This document shows, piece after piece, positions 1-64,000 of a stretch of 64,000 bases of DNA (the first letter of the stretch is position 1; each line of letters starts with the position of its first letter). A model generated the notes under the pieces. The model made no database searches and had not been told where the DNA came from. It saw nothing but the letters and a program-made list of their open reading frames with translations. Both the position numbers and the translations under genes were made by a program. This stretch comes from Apostichopus japonicus (Eukaryota > Echinodermata > Holothuroidea > Aspidochirotida > Stichopodidae), in assembly GCF_037975245.1 (NCBI RefSeq), contig NC_092574.1, forward strand, positions 9,211,713 through 9,275,712, written 5' to 3'.

Positions 1-60
1 TACAAATATCTGTAACATTGCCGCGAATTCGTTCTATGGGCTGTTTCAACTCCATTATTT
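1..60 (+). CDS. Gene A: partial LRR exon at window edge
   Basis: Read in the phase that ends with TT before a perfect gtaagt donor at 61, these bases encode [19 protein letters not shown] plus a split Leu. This aligns position by position with residues 5-24 of the family's 24-residue LRR. The first 12 nt of the expected 72-nt exon lie outside the window. It joins in phase to the LRR exon at 4257. Confidence 0.75.
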
Positions 61-3000
61 GTAAGTCTGTTAAAATCAGTGTCACCAATTTGTCAGAAGC
101 TTGTCAATATTTTTTGCAGTTCATGTACCTCACAGTCGTATTCGGTACTAAATTAATAACACGAGTGAAGTTAATACAATGCCAACCACTGAAATCACGC
201 CTTCCTCATCTCGCAATAAGAATGAAAACAATCTCGTAATGTGTATCATACATTCCTTTCAAATTAAATGATGAACATATTGATTACAATACATGCGCAA
301 AAAAGATAGCACTCAATGTTAGCGTTCATAAGAAAGATGGCGGTTTTAACAGGTGGTTTAGCCAATTTCCTTATATTTCAAAGAAGTAACACTGACTAAC
401 GGTTAACAAATTTTGATAAGTCCTATGCTTGCGCTGGTTGTGGTGAGAAATAAATCACATTAAAACATCTTGAAATAGGCCTGCTATGTGTAACCGAAAT
501 AAGTAGTTATATCGATCTCACTGTTATTAAGAACCTCATGTGACTAAACAGTAGGATATGTTAGGGCAGGATGCTTCATTGTCCCAAGTTTTAGCTACCC
601 GTATCTCTATACCTCTACTACTCCAACGGTCGGGCTCCAAGAAAACCACTATGGCAATCTTCTGACAAGTTAAGCACCCTACGATAAAATGGGTTGAGTG
701 TTGTGTTTAATGTAGATCGTTTTACACGAGAGCCTTTGCCATATAAAACAAATATGTTCTTGTCTCAGCCTTAAATTTCAGTATAAGGCAATTCCGTAGT
801 TATTAAACATAATACAGTTTATATGTTATATGATATCGAATTTCATATTAGAAAAACAGGATGTACACGTTGTCTATTTTGTTATTGTAATCAAGCAGAA
901 AGTTAATTTCATCATTCAGGTGATAATAACAAGCACACAAGCAAACAAATTAACAAATATACAAAGAGTTGTGAAATGCAGTGCTCTCAAAATCCTTTAT
1001 GACTTAACGAGTAGAGCACTCCCTACTACAGTTGATTTACTTCCTTGTTTAACTTGTTGAAAAAGAAACATAGATAGAGGGATTTATGAGATGGTTCCCC
1101 TAAATATAGGCAATGAATGTATAGCAACAATCTCTCAGAGATTATTGCATGCAATATATATTTTCTAGGATTTGCTACCATTAAATGCATATGCCTATTT
1201 AACACACACGCATGCGCACACACACATATATTTATATATTATATATATATATATATATATACACACACACACCCACACTCGCACACACATATATATATAT
1301 ATATACATTATATATATATATATACATTATATATATATATATATTTATATATATATATATATATATATATATATATATATATATATATATATATATATAT
1401 ATATATATATATATATATATATATACAGCTGACAAACGCCTACAGTGGAATAACCACCTTCCTTATCGGCTCGAACCTCTGGACATACAATCAGCGTCCA
1501 TGGCCTAGTGGTTAGAGTGTCCGCATATAAAGCGGGATGCCCGGGTTCGAATCCCGGTGGAGGCTGGAAGTTTTTCACTGCTCTGGATTTTCCAACTCTC
1601 TACGATTTCAATTATATATATATATATATATATATATATATAAATATATATATATATAATGTATATATATATATATAATGTATATATATATATATATATG
1701 TGTGTATGCGAGGGTGGGTGTGTGTGTGTATATATATATATATATATATAATCCCGGTGGAGGCTGGAAGTTTTTCACTGCTCTGGATTTTCCAACTCTC
1801 TACGATTTCAATTATATATATATATATATATATATATATATATATATATATATATATATATATATATATATATATATATATATATATATATATTGATTGT
1901 TGCTAGAGATTGTTGCTATACATTCATTGCCTATATTTGCGCAAGTTAGGCCAAAACCTCCTGGAAAACGACCCAAAACCTGGTCGCTTTTAATTTCTGC
2001 CTAAAATTCACAAAGAAGGCAATCCCGGGAGGCCAATTATATCGGGTAATGGTACAGCGACTGAAAAAATATCCAAATTTGTGGATCTCCTCATCCAACC
2101 TCTTGTTTCGGCCCTACCGTCCTATGTGCAGGACACTACGGATTTCATCCGGAAAATTGGGGAAATAAAAAATCTTCCCTTATATACTTTGTTAGATACC
2201 TTGGATGTGTCTTCGTTATACACAAATATCCCTAACGAAGAGGGCATTTCGGCCTGCACAAAAGCATTCAAACCGAAACGTGGCAAAACCCCCACGAAGA
2301 AAGAATTGGCCGAATTAATGCAACTTATCTTGACCAACAATAATCTGGTATTTGGCAACAAACACTACCTCCAAATTCATGGCACCGCAATGGGTACCAA
2401 AATGGCACCGTCTTTTGCCAACATCTTTATGGGAAACCTCGAGAAAGAATTTTTATCTCGACAAAACTTGAAACCACACACGTGGTTACGTTACATTGAC
2501 GATATCTTTATGATATGGACCCATGGTGAGGCAAATCTAAAACTCTTCATTGATGACATAAACTCGTTTCATCACACTATCAAATTCACTGCTGATTTTT
2601 CTGGACATGGCGTTTACTTCCTGGACACCACCGTGACCCTACAAAATGGTTCACTCAAAACAGACTTGTTCAATAAACCCACGAACAAGCACAACTACCT
2701 CTTACCAAGCAGTTGCCATCCACGTCACTGTACCAGAAATATTCCGTACAGTCAAGCGTTGCGCATTCGACGCATTTGCTCCTCTGAAGTCGATTTTGAT
2801 TCACGCACTAAAGAACTGTCACAACACCTCCTAAACAGACAGTATTTTCGGGGTACTATTGAAAATGCTATCAAAAAGGCTAAAAGAAAACCCCGTACCA
2901 AAACATTGACGTACAAAACTCGTCAAACCAGTTCCAAAAGGGTACCATTGGTTACTGAATTCCACCCTGGTCTCCCACCACTGGCTAATATCATTCAGAA

Positions 3001-6000
3001 GAATGTTCACCTACTTCAAGGCACCGAACGCCTGAAATCAGTTTTCCCAACCTACGGGATATCTTAGTTCGGGCATCCTTTCGGGATGAAACCCCATTAG
3101 GGGAAAGCAAAACAGAGATTACAGGATCATCGCCCTGTACACAAAATTGCAAAACGTGGTTACTTGTCGATTCGACCGGGGCCATTAAGAGCAACCAAAC
3201 CAAACGCACGTTCCAAATTCGGCACAAAATTAACTGCCTATCCAAAAATGTCATTTACCTCATCTACTGCAATATTTGTAACTTACAATACATTGGAGAG
3301 TCAAAAAACACTCTTAGAATGAGACTGACACCCCATAGATCGGCGATCAAACCAAAAAGATCTACCAACCTGTTGCATATCACTTCATCTCCAAAATCAT
3401 TCAATTGAGAATTTGCGTGTTATTGCCATTGACCAGAACGATTCTTGGACAGATAAATCTAGCCTGGAAAGCGAAAGAAAATTTCTGGGAACTAAACCTA
3501 AAGACCACGGCACCATTCGGTTTAAACATCAGAAACGATTTGCCGTCCCAGATAAACCAAAACAATTCCTTTACAATTACGACGGAATCGGATTAAAATA
3601 ATCAGACGCGGATTAAAATAATCCGAATTTCTAAAACTTCTGCTCAATTCAGCAGAAATCAGTAAGTCGCTTTGCCTTTACAACCATGCCGACATCTTCT
3701 CTATAAAACAGTTTCAATTCCTGCTACTCCTTGTCACTTTCGGTGATCATGCACTGAAGAAGAGCTAGTTTTGCTCGAAAGCTATGCAAAAACCAAACAT
3801 TGGCTGTTTTACTTCCAATCATTTACCTAATTCAATTATTGTATCTCACTCGAGATCCAGCCTTTCTCTACATGCAGCATAGTTGTTTAACAGTTTTTCC
3901 GTTATTCCTATATATGTATATATATATATGTGTATATATATATGTGTATATATATATGTGTATATATATATATATATATATATATATATATATATATATA
4001 TATATATATATTTAATGTGTAGCATTAAATTCTTACTTACGGCTTGGCTTGCCTATTAAGAGTGTAAAATTGTCAGATTCAAAGCGCCAGGGGTGCACTC
4101 TGTACAATCATATATAACACTTGTTTATGTTTTACACTAATGTTGTTTTACACTAATTTATGTATGAATGTAATGTTTATATGCATGTATGTATCAATGT
4201 ATGTATGCTTTGATGTAAACAGGAGAAATATGTTTTGAAGATTTTTGCCCACACAGAGGCTTAAGAAACAACTATGTAGAAACAATTGAAGCTGGCACGT
4301 TTGTAGGACTCCGTAGCTTGAAAGCTTTGTAAGTACTGACATACTTTGCTGACTATTTTGCTAGATTGAGTGTGCATGTTTTAAGAACTAATGTGTTTCA
4401 TACTTTAGTTATAGGCTCAATAAGATGTTACTTAACAAGTACCCAAGGGAGTGAAGTGGTTCATTTTATGATTAAGTTTGCTGGACAGCCACAAATAGGC
4501 TGAAGAATATTAAAAGCGACATTTCAATCTACTGATGATTTACTTAACAAAATAGGTACTGTAAATATCAATTGAATGCAAATAACTGATATTTAAAGAA
4601 AACAAAACATACTTCGAGCGTACACCCATCCACCATTATTTACTTCATGTAGAAGTAATAGAACCTAGTTGTATATGGTGTTAACATCTCAAGATTCATC
4701 CTGTTCTGTCTATATTGTGTTTGAGAGTTTCCAAATTGTGCCGCTCAAGTCCACTATCGTAATGTCAAGTTTCACAACTAGGAAACTGTTAAACTACTAA
4801 CCGGGCATCATGAAAAGGTTATATGTATTTTATTTTTTGACAACGAAGAGGTATAAAATTATCTCACTCACATTACAAGGCTGACACAGACGATACCAGT
4901 GTTTAGAAATCATCCAGGTCTGATCTTCCACTACAATCACATGAAAGAAAGTGTCATCAAAATGGCTTGGAACTAAATGCCGTGTAACATTATCGTTGTC
5001 GCTTTTATTTCATGAACTTTTGATATTGTAAGGTAAGCGAAGCTATAACAAAATTATGTATTACTTACTTTTAATAGTATTTGTACAGCAAAATGTCTAA
5101 GTTACAATAGTCAGTTCTTGTAGTGCAATATCAATGTATATTTATGGACACGTTGTCATGGTAGCTGTTGCTTTATTCATATGAAAAGTAATTATTAACT
5201 TCACCGTTTTGCCTTTCTATAGGGATTTGAGTAACAATAAGCTAAAATCGTTGTCACCGAAACTTTTGGAAGATCTGTCGTCACTTAGGGATTTGTAAGT
5301 ATACAAAGTAAAAGTAACCTAGGGAATGCTAAAGCTCTAATATTAAGGAATGCCATATGTTTATGTTACTACATCATTGCATGTTCAACATGAATGGAAC
5401 AATCACCACCTCATCATATTTTTACTTTTTTATATTCTTAATATAAGTATACAATATCAAGAGATTTTTTACAAGGCGACAATGCAAGCCGAAATAATGA
5501 AAACATTCAACAGAATTTAAATGTAAATGTGTTAATTTTTCAGCAACGTAAGCTACAATGAGCTAACATACCTTCCAGAGACCCTCTTCAAAGGCCTGCG
5601 GAAACTTGAGACCATGTAAGTAGCATTTAGAAGTTACAATTGAGTTTAGGATTATTCATTATAATCCAATTGACCAGCTTAACTCGTTATACTCATTTTC
5701 ACTTGTGATTGCATCTGATTACTTGGGCTACAAAATATAAAGTAAAGTATTTTTTTTTTCATTGTTGTACATGTGTATCTTTTTACGAATATGCTTTACA
5801 ACGTAGAAAATATTCTCTGTAAGTATCTTCATCCGATAATCACATAACGTAAAACCAACAGACATGCTTGGTAACGCAGCCGAGGTATATTTGAGTGCAG
5901 AATATCCCTTTGCAAATGAGAATTAGAACTTGACTTTATGCCACACAATGCTTTGTTTGAGGTTATTTCGAACAGCGATCTAAATATTTTACTACAATGC

Positions 6001-63586: not shown

Positions 63587-63689
63587 CTGCAGATTGATAT
63601 GGAAAAAAATAGAATTTCAAACTATAAATTGGATTGCATAGAAAGTAGAAAGATCAATTGGTTTCCTTAAGTAGAAAAAAAGGGATCAG

Positions 63690-64000
63690 GAGGGACACTA
63701 AAGTCCCCATGAAGGACCCTATAGGAGAGAAACAATACTGAAGACACAAACTCTCAGACCTGATTACAATGCTTAAAGTGCTTGTCCAAAGCATTCTTAA
63801 CCCATTCACACTAAGCTCCAGTCTGGTGAGATTCAACATTTGTAACCGCCTATAATTAGGAACACCCTTTAAGGAACTAATCATCCTAGTAGCCCTCCTC
63901 TAGACTTTTTTCAATTAAGTACTTCTTTATCCTAAGCAAAATATGGGTTCCAAGCCTGCAGGGCATACTCCAGATGAGGCATAACCAACTGCTTATACAG
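63690..64000 (-). mobile_element. CR1-like LINE RT fragment (block B), cut by window end
   Basis: Minus strand LYKQLVMPHLEYALQAWNP at the window edge and RRATRMISSLKGVPNYRRLQ near 63870, matching the block A fragment in the same intron position. Confidence 0.8.

Follow-up and report, generated by a model that had tools for sequence, protein, structure and literature searches.

The 64,000-nucleotide stretch of the Apostichopus japonicus genome analyzed here (contig NC_092574.1, forward-strand positions 9,211,713 to 9,275,712; hereafter the window, meaning the whole stretch) raises the question of whether exons encoding leucine-rich repeats (LRRs) and exons encoding a polytopic membrane region form one gene and, if so, what kind of protein such a gene might encode. 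An earlier reading made from the letters of the DNA without database searches (hereafter the sequence-only reading) had recognized four gene copies and a scrap with this architecture in 64 kb, and all were found: gene A on the plus strand, genes B, C and D on the minus strand, and the scrap, which proved to have a tandem copy. We propose, with a probability of roughly 0.55, that these genes belong to a large family of single-gene surface recognition receptors, in which variable LRR heads would be mounted on a conserved signalling core.

The architecture is best seen in gene B, for which a complete model was obtained. Exons were called by AG/GT borders, length and LRR score. All 23 introns of the model are phase-consistent (22 GT-AG and one GC-AG), and the frame closes with one stop. 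The features of gene B in window coordinates are as follows.

24729-40697, minus strand: gene B, complete model of 24 exons encoding 1201 amino acids (aa)
40601-40697, minus strand: exon 1, carrying the start codon and a signal-peptide-like segment that was recognized by eye and from hydropathy
40242-40362, minus strand: exon 2, LRRNT-like cap (C..GVCHC...VDC), motif judged by eye
29031-39618, minus strand: span of the LRR-type exons
39547-39618, 39218-39289, 38492-38563, 37613-37684, 37339-37410, 36539-36610, minus strand: LRR-type exons, first part
35704-35775, 35252-35323, 34674-34745, 34235-34306, 33408-33479, 32948-33019, 32116-32187, minus strand: LRR-type exons, second part
30938-31087 (double), 30637-30705, 30128-30196, 29785-29856, 29031-29087, minus strand: LRR-type exons, third part
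28159-28340, minus strand: first neck exon, a cysteine (Cys) module
26179-27794, minus strand: large exon with the remaining Cys neck, a DUF7630-like stretch and most membrane segments
25959-26085, minus strand: exon with additional hydrophobic segments
24729-24838, minus strand: last exon, encoding a hydrophobic stretch at the C-terminus, then a short basic tail and the stop

Read in the direction of translation, the signal-peptide-like start and LRRNT-like cap are followed by mostly single LRRs, one per same-phase 72-nt exon, then by a 150-nt exon that encodes two LRRs, by three LRR-like exons (69-72 nt) and by a 57-nt exon, and finally by the Cys-neck exon, a 1.6-kb neck/membrane exon and two short exons ending in a basic tail. 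A further LRR-like exon call at 32189-32263 (score 6.0) does not show the consensus and would interrupt the series of phase-linked exons; for these reasons it was excluded from the model.

The sequence-only reading had suggested searching the joined gene B protein against Pfam. This search (E up to 1) returned LRR_8 at 3.7e-75 together with other LRR families, and found no standard G-protein-coupled receptor (GPCR) family in the membrane region. Below the respective cut-offs were an ELAPOR1-type TNFR family (8.7e-6), DUF7630 (2e-4), Ephrin_rec_like (0.0018) and the TRP family PF06011 (0.061). No LRRNT, 7tm, TIR, TRP_N/ML-like, kinase, ephrin-binding or SAM domain, and no recognizable signalling domain, was listed for the full-length protein at this limit; in this and the following Pfam scans, HMMER filters remove most matches above E ~0.1 despite the E limits of 1 or 10. 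The TRP_N/ML-like lumenal domain is the usual partner of PF06011. Hydropathy analysis gave ten hydrophobic peaks between residues 773 and 1189, and a weaker stretch at about residues 1065-1088, under the peak cut-off, was seen by eye. The sequence-only reading had counted about nine or ten segments. When the N-terminus is placed outside, a crude positive-inside score is highest for nine segments (41.1), which puts the C-terminus in the cytoplasm, and almost as high for seven (40.8). After the last peaks, a tail of 31 or 12 residues remains.

We then considered whether the LRR and membrane exons could belong to separate genes. LRR-type exons were found upstream, on the same strand, in all 24 loci whose upstream DNA was examined (A to E, L015 to L028, and L029 to L032 with L036, these last five comprising the C9, C18, C8, C16:16.77M and C5 loci). 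For the 14 loci L015 to L028, 1-10 sense LRR exons were detected per locus at a score of at least 6.5 and none on the antisense strand of any, compared with means of 0-0.20 (maximum 2) after single-base shuffling within 100-nt blocks; lowering the score to 6.0 brought up a single antisense call, in L019. The LRR head is supported by a single exon in L021, the C8 locus and L036 (on C5; score 6.5), the last scanned at a score of 5.5 with no control, and L030 has two upstream LRR exons. Three loci (L029, L031 and L032; together the C18, C8 and C16:16.77M loci) had no LRR exon within ~6.4 kb and became positive after 9 kb more of each was scanned with wider lengths and phases, a setting run without a shuffle control. 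One of the 24 loci, L023, carries a stop in its membrane exon. We reject separate genes for the LRR and membrane exons, as far as genomic sequence can decide, because the exons share a strand, are phase-linked in B and D and stand in the same order in all 24 loci. The domain order proposed earlier (LRRNT-like cap, LRRs, Cys neck, polytopic core) is borne out, phase-linked in one gene model in both B and D.

Because the outer members of the family tree (L028, and L018 with L029 and L031) also carry LRRs, the LRR-membrane fusion probably predates the spread of the family in this genome, as far as can be told from a tree that has several long branches and a midpoint root placed for drawing only.

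The other copies in the window repeat this plan. The strings that the sequence-only reading had quoted as a conserved core are present in all four copies, and stretches of 22 and 15 residues are invariant in alignment A1. The features of genes A, C and D are listed below.

4257-15501, plus strand: gene A, 17 exons in the window; the gene continues past the left edge
4257-4328, 5223-5294, 5544-5615, 6481-6552, 6928-6999, 7851-7922, 8740-8811, plus strand: gene A, LRR-type exons, first part
9062-9133, 9764-9913, 10234-10302, 10747-10815, 11046-11117, 11486-11542, plus strand: gene A, LRR-type exons, second part
12152-12333, plus strand: gene A, neck exon
12626-14238, plus strand: gene A, large neck and membrane exon
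14976-15102 and 15392-15501, plus strand: gene A, last two exons
43453-50440, minus strand: gene C, 5'-truncated copy
50369-50440, 48683-48832, 48189-48257, 47565-47633, 47251-47322, 46655-46711, minus strand: gene C, LRR-type exons
near 49475-49540, minus strand: gene C, degenerate LRR exon
46088-46260, minus strand: gene C, neck exon
44230-45833, minus strand: gene C, large neck and membrane exon, reading frame open
43889-44015 and 43453-43565, minus strand: gene C, last two exons
57234-63586, minus strand: gene D, window part; it leaves the window at the right edge and continues to window coordinate 72629
63437-63586, 63136-63204, 62623-62691, 62321-62392, 61585-61641, minus strand: gene D, LRR-type exons in the window
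60717-60898, minus strand: gene D, neck exon
58732-60353, minus strand: gene D, large neck and membrane exon, 98% identical to that of B
58500-58626 and 57234-57343, minus strand: gene D, last two exons

Gene B alone has both a signal-peptide-like exon and an LRRNT inside the window; for D, both lie just outside; for A, an LRRNT match at window coordinates -1647 to -1429 places the cap ~1.5 kb beyond the left edge; and C has no signal peptide or LRRNT cap in the window.

Genes B and D are related by a tandem duplication, whose two units and attached scraps are as follows.

18454-50859, no strand: tandem duplication unit 1, defined by homology blocks against unit 2
50958 to window coordinate 84383, no strand: tandem duplication unit 2
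18449-18499, minus strand: membrane-exon scrap (TM8 region), 17 aa, 76-82% identical, at the left border of unit 1 (18454)
50959-51003, minus strand: tandem copy of the scrap, 15 aa, 80% identical

The homology blocks are 89-95% identical, and the three largest are 94-95% identical. Judged by this alignment, gene D is a recent tandem duplicate of gene B, so the two are not independent instances of the architecture. With 8.6 kb beyond the window, D is complete (23 exons, 1179 residues) and repeats the exon series of B, with two LRR exons lost (B 32948-33019 and 32116-32187, within an alignment gap at 31953-33348) and one LRR exon duplicated (window coordinates 66160-66231 and 65360-65431), the frame being unbroken. 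The interval 31953-33348 is a whole-repeat difference, with two LRR exons present in the unit of B and missing from that of D. A GC-AG intron follows the same LRR exon in both tandem copies (37339-37410 in B; window coordinates 69310-69381 in D). Gene E, the sister of C, lies outside the window and crosses the right border of unit 2, with its cap near 91.6 kb. Gene C is likely the portion of E that lay inside the duplicated unit, and its 5' truncation would be explained by the unit border having cut an E-type gene during the tandem duplication.

The sequence-only reading had described a local family. It is not local: the union of two protein searches gave at least 97 membrane-exon loci genome-wide, on 12 contigs. 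Among the matches listed, 50 loci were on C16, 14 on C2, nine each on C4 and C5, seven on C14, two on C23 and one each on C12, C9, C18, C8, C13 and C7. The search with the membrane exon of B yielded 82 rows representing 80 loci (best 80 of 113 candidates scored), and that with the most divergent member yielded 87 rows at 32-100% identity, representing 81 loci (best 81 of 106 scored). In-frame stops were reported in four of the 97 loci (C16:43099744, 34907738, 28775416 and 35235317), and 93 had no reported stop over ~1.5 kb, a report that leaves frameshifts uncounted. Subfamilies differ by more than 60% in sequence. As the assembly stands, the gene family is real, large and mostly intact-looking. 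No relative was confirmed in viral contigs or prokaryote genome contigs. The densest cluster lies at C16:34.2-35.5 Mb, where several loci have identical scores (four at 498.6 bits); such equal-scoring copies may be very recent, gene-converted or assembly-duplicated.

We next consider what the neck and the core resemble. Across 12 diverse members, whose identity to B is 34-72%, the invariant positions include GFYQV, a W.WE..E..R...Q motif and every one of the 16 cysteines in the part of the neck that the large exon encodes. DUF7630 (PF24633), a 45-aa domain without assigned function, matches the neck stretch just before the first membrane segment, and this is the likeness between the family and other DUF7630 proteins. 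A first scan (E up to 10) gave this match in every one of its 12 members, with a best E of 8.4e-9; among another ten members, L018, L020 and L028 matched strongly and the others weakly (E 0.0012 to 6), the members of that second scan on C2, C5, C8 and C18 other than L018 having E values of 0.028 to 6. Scores exceeded the 27-bit cut-off in A (30.4), C (29.2), L018 (30.6) and L020 (27.9) and fell below it in B (23.2), D (23.5) and eight of the ten members in the second scan. A genome search with the PF24633 profile gave at least 30 matches, all above the cut-off (best 150 of 166 candidates scored), compared with none in 14 control genomes. The name DUF7630 did not occur in the open-licence PMC literature searched. 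The earlier description of the neck as GCC2/GCC3-like was right in kind, while no scan brought the family it pointed to, Ephrin_rec_like (PF07699), up to the cut-off of 23.1 bits (18.6 bits at best, E 0.0017), and it is DUF7630 that passes in some members. To Eph receptors, this amounts to a weak resemblance of Cys modules; unlike them, B has no kinase, ephrin-binding or SAM domain.

For the core, the sole significant match was PF06011, the fungal-type TRP family, which includes Pkd2, FLC and Spray proteins. It was found in three of ten members scanned (L037, 2e-6, 27.4 bits; L038, 2.9e-5; L036, 2.1e-4), aligned over profile positions 142-342 of 426. A search of the whole genome (671 Mb) with this profile gave only two matches, both in membrane exons of this family (C2:3571417, 1.2e-4, 28.3 bits; C2:3630348, 2.6e-4; 17 of 17 candidates scored), and there were none in 14 unspecified control genomes. 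L037 is 38% identical to B and 46-48% identical to L018, L029 and L031; because alignments tie them, the members scoring with PF06011 and those scoring with DUF7630 were grouped together. The weak PF06011 alignment of B begins at profile position 281, at a residue roughly matching the same profile position in L037, as reckoned from the alignments. Remote kinship of the core with PF06011 is likely on these comparisons. Sequence or profile searches of the PDB with the membrane part gave no match to it; the hits were to the neck or EGF-like, apart from a few that were unrelated, and the best E was 0.068.

These observations suggest the following mechanism. A signal-peptide-like start is followed by arrayed LRRs of 24 residues each, and these stand on a conserved Cys-rich neck and a conserved polytopic core with a short C-terminal tail, the remote kin of the core probably being the fungal-type TRP family PF06011. 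The head would be extracellular and would bind varied ligands, whether microbial, dietary or conspecific; the neck may relay the change on binding; and the core itself would signal, through ion flux or a coupled partner, because no other part of the protein looks able to do so. Heads appear to diversify through point changes and through LRR exons being cleanly gained or lost as whole units, whereas the membrane part stays conserved, a pattern that a recognition family would be expected to show. Given whole-LRR gain and loss, ~100 copies and a constrained membrane part, a recognition family appears to be the plainest reading. Immune and chemosensory use would each fit the sequence data.

In recent pairs, the head changes faster than the membrane part. 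Ratios of nonsynonymous to synonymous change (dN/dS) were estimated pairwise by the Nei-Gojobori method for 13 pairs; the exon list for B included the 32189-32263 call, and 15 of its 18 entries were matched to D. For LRRs and membrane part, respectively, the ratios were 0.81 and 0.20 (B-D), 0.57 and 0.26 (C-E, five shared LRR exons), 0.45 and 0.09 (L026-L027), 1.29 and 0.38, 1.10 and 0.54, and 1.06 and 0.31 (three recent C16 pairs), and 0.68 and 0.50, and 0.69 and 0.43 (two recent pairs with L024). The membrane part thus ranged from 0.09 to 0.54, and neck ratios were mostly 0.15-0.48. Three recent pairs showed 0.065 replacements per nonsynonymous site at the LRR positions presumed to be concave, compared with 0.030 at other non-scaffold positions and 0.002 at scaffold positions. 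Among five older pairs (A-B, B-C, A-E, B-E and L016-L017), LRR ratios were 0.15-0.17 and exceeded the membrane ratio in three. These rates support diversification of the head.

Several points weigh against the proposed reading. As to rates, the ratios are simple estimates without a significance test; the neck of B-D, at 0.77, is as fast as the B-D LRRs; synonymous change is high or saturated in the five older pairs, two of which have LRR ratios not above those of the membrane part (L016-L017, 0.15 and 0.19; A-E, 0.15 and 0.16). In the three recent pairs, synonymous change was also higher at concave positions (0.078, compared with 0.050 and 0.024 elsewhere), and in the C16 trio the ratio peaked at 'other' positions (1.46, compared with 0.81 concave and 0.88 scaffold). 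Because of these last two observations, the rate data fall short of showing positive selection. As to the core, the best PF06011 scores (27.4 bits in the member scan, 28.3 in the genome search) lie below the curated cut-off of 28.5; the three positive members form one subfamily (98% and 85% identical to L037); PF06011 gave no match in the remaining seven of ten members or in any of the 12 members of the other scan; and the membrane parts of A, B and C alone gave E values of 1.6, 6.3 and 8.9. Of two reversed controls, one matched no family and the other matched unrelated families at 0.15 and 0.21, which places the E of 0.061 for B, taken alone, at noise level. No member of the ten scanned scored well with both PF06011 and DUF7630, the latter giving E values of 6 (L037), 0.036 (L038) and 0.17 (L036) in the positive members. 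The segment count and topology of the core, ten peaks against nine or seven by score, also belong here. The TRP likeness claimed by the sequence-only reading survives in this reduced form: a sub-threshold match (27.4 against 28.5 bits) whose genome-wide occurrences fall only in this family, confined to one subfamily, with the window genes at noise.

A narrower version of the reading, less probable than the general one, would be an animal receptor class with the LRR head on a core like that of PF06011 or CRMP proteins, in ~100 or more copies in one sea cucumber and outside the GPCR, Toll-like and classical TRP classes; turnover of LRR exons between tandem copies would alter specificity, and the core would conduct or trigger ion flux. 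A channel-like function of the core is possible on sequence grounds. Somewhat more doubtful is a true LRR-gated ion channel, in which binding by the head would open a pore in the core. Its attraction is that the core remotely matches a family entered in Pfam as TRP ion channel, in a protein (B) with no known signalling domain; however, that match is below the cut-off and significant in one subfamily only, channel activity has mostly been inferred for PF06011 proteins themselves, and no pore motif was identified. Membership of the animal TRP or polycystin families is ruled out, as no Ion_trans or PKD_channel family was found in the membrane parts scanned (E up to 10). From PF06011 proteins themselves, which the core resembles in three members and two genomic exons, the family differs in its LRR head and Cys neck, in scoring below the cut-off and in that most scanned members do not score.

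Less probable again is a role other than sensing, in adhesion, trafficking or exocytosis. Here, the relevant comparison is with the CRMP proteins of apicomplexans and ciliates, which license regulated secretion. As described in PMC9815656 and PMC9670195, CRMPs combine variable heads with Cys-rich or ephrin-receptor-like modules and a conserved core that crosses the membrane several times (in Toxoplasma and Plasmodium by nine segments, in Tetrahymena by a predicted five). They function in exocytosis in both Tetrahymena and Toxoplasma, and the authors connect the large repertoires of Chromera and Paramecium with sensing of the environment. The plan is the same as that of the present family, compared by description only, and the nine apicomplexan segments may be set beside the ten peaks of B and its crude score of nine or seven. 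In contrast, no LRR is among the domains in the legend of PMC9815656 Fig 1, and B, with a tail of about 30 aa or less, has no counterpart to the long tails of CRMPs, which in Toxoplasma measure 478 and 565 aa according to the same paper. Moreover, ~100 copies with fast heads fit recognition better.

We regard as unlikely a divergent GPCR-like receptor with a 7TM-derived core coupling to G proteins, as suggested for Toxoplasma CRMPa, which is termed GPCR-like though not a bona fide GPCR in PMC9670195. LRR heads on 7TM cores do exist in the LGRs. The head of this family shares with them an LRRNT-like cap (by motif only) and 24-aa LRRs with the strong LRR_8 match given above, and that of B matches the structures of LGR4 (2.6e-46) and LGR5 (8e-43); the same-phase 72-nt LRR exons and one big membrane exon also resemble LGR genes, and the neck weakly resembles NCD3G of family 3 GPCRs (at best 16.8 bits against a cut-off of 38.9, E 0.0063). 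However, no 7tm family, 7tm_1 (PF00001) included, was found in the scanned membrane parts (E up to 10), the Cys neck is of a different kind, PF06011 is the only family that the core matches significantly, and about ten hydrophobic segments are seen, though the crude score ranks seven close behind nine. Membership of the LGRs is ruled out by the lack of a 7tm domain.

Toll-like receptors are expanded in echinoderms, and the LRR head of B also matches TLR13 (1.5e-48) and TLR3 (6.3e-42), its best structure match being the acid labile subunit (1.4e-56). In contrast to the single-pass Toll-like receptors, this family is polytopic, with ten hydrophobic peaks, and B has no TIR at E up to 1, which rules out membership. 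The sequence-only reading was therefore correct that these proteins are neither LRR-GPCRs nor Toll-like receptors. A description of the LRR, Cys-neck and polytopic-core architecture was not found in the open-licence PMC literature; the modules are known and a relative of the core is probably known, while the combination was found described nowhere in that literature.

It is quite improbable that the family is largely non-functional, consisting of tandem debris or of heterozygous-haplotype assembly duplicates that inflate the count: C is truncated, scraps are present, the tandem units are 89-95% identical by block (within what allelic divergence in marine animals can reach) and several C16 loci share the same score, but 93 of the 97 loci have no reported stop, the membrane part is constrained in recent pairs (dN/dS 0.09-0.54), D is intact with its own set of LRR exons and subfamilies are more than 60% different.

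Other elements were observed beside these genes. Reverse-transcriptase open reading frames, presumably Penelope-type, occupy 1994-3601 on the plus strand (RVT_1, E 9e-11) in a presumed intron of gene A, and a satellite array of more than 16 kb, with a period of ~760 bases and an internal inverted repeat, lies to the left of the window (C14:9191713-9207926), near the 5' end of gene A. Beside the membrane-exon scraps are copies of an open-reading-frame-like repeat on the minus strand (18502-18811, 20862-21196, 50998-51329 and 53392-53693; ~55-88% alike). A short coding-like tandem repeat occupies 52246-52705, and its PIGDEV-type units can be read on either strand; the other tandem unit has a shorter version of it near 19.9-20.1 kb.

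If the members of this family are receptors, then a farmed echinoderm would devote at least 97 loci to them, corresponding to ~0.5% of the 19,828 annotated genes given in PMC10344927. The question of how echinoderms recognize microbes or food cues would then become testable, as would the question of whether an old eukaryotic polytopic core, of the fungal TRP type and perhaps shared with protist CRMPs, became an animal receptor.

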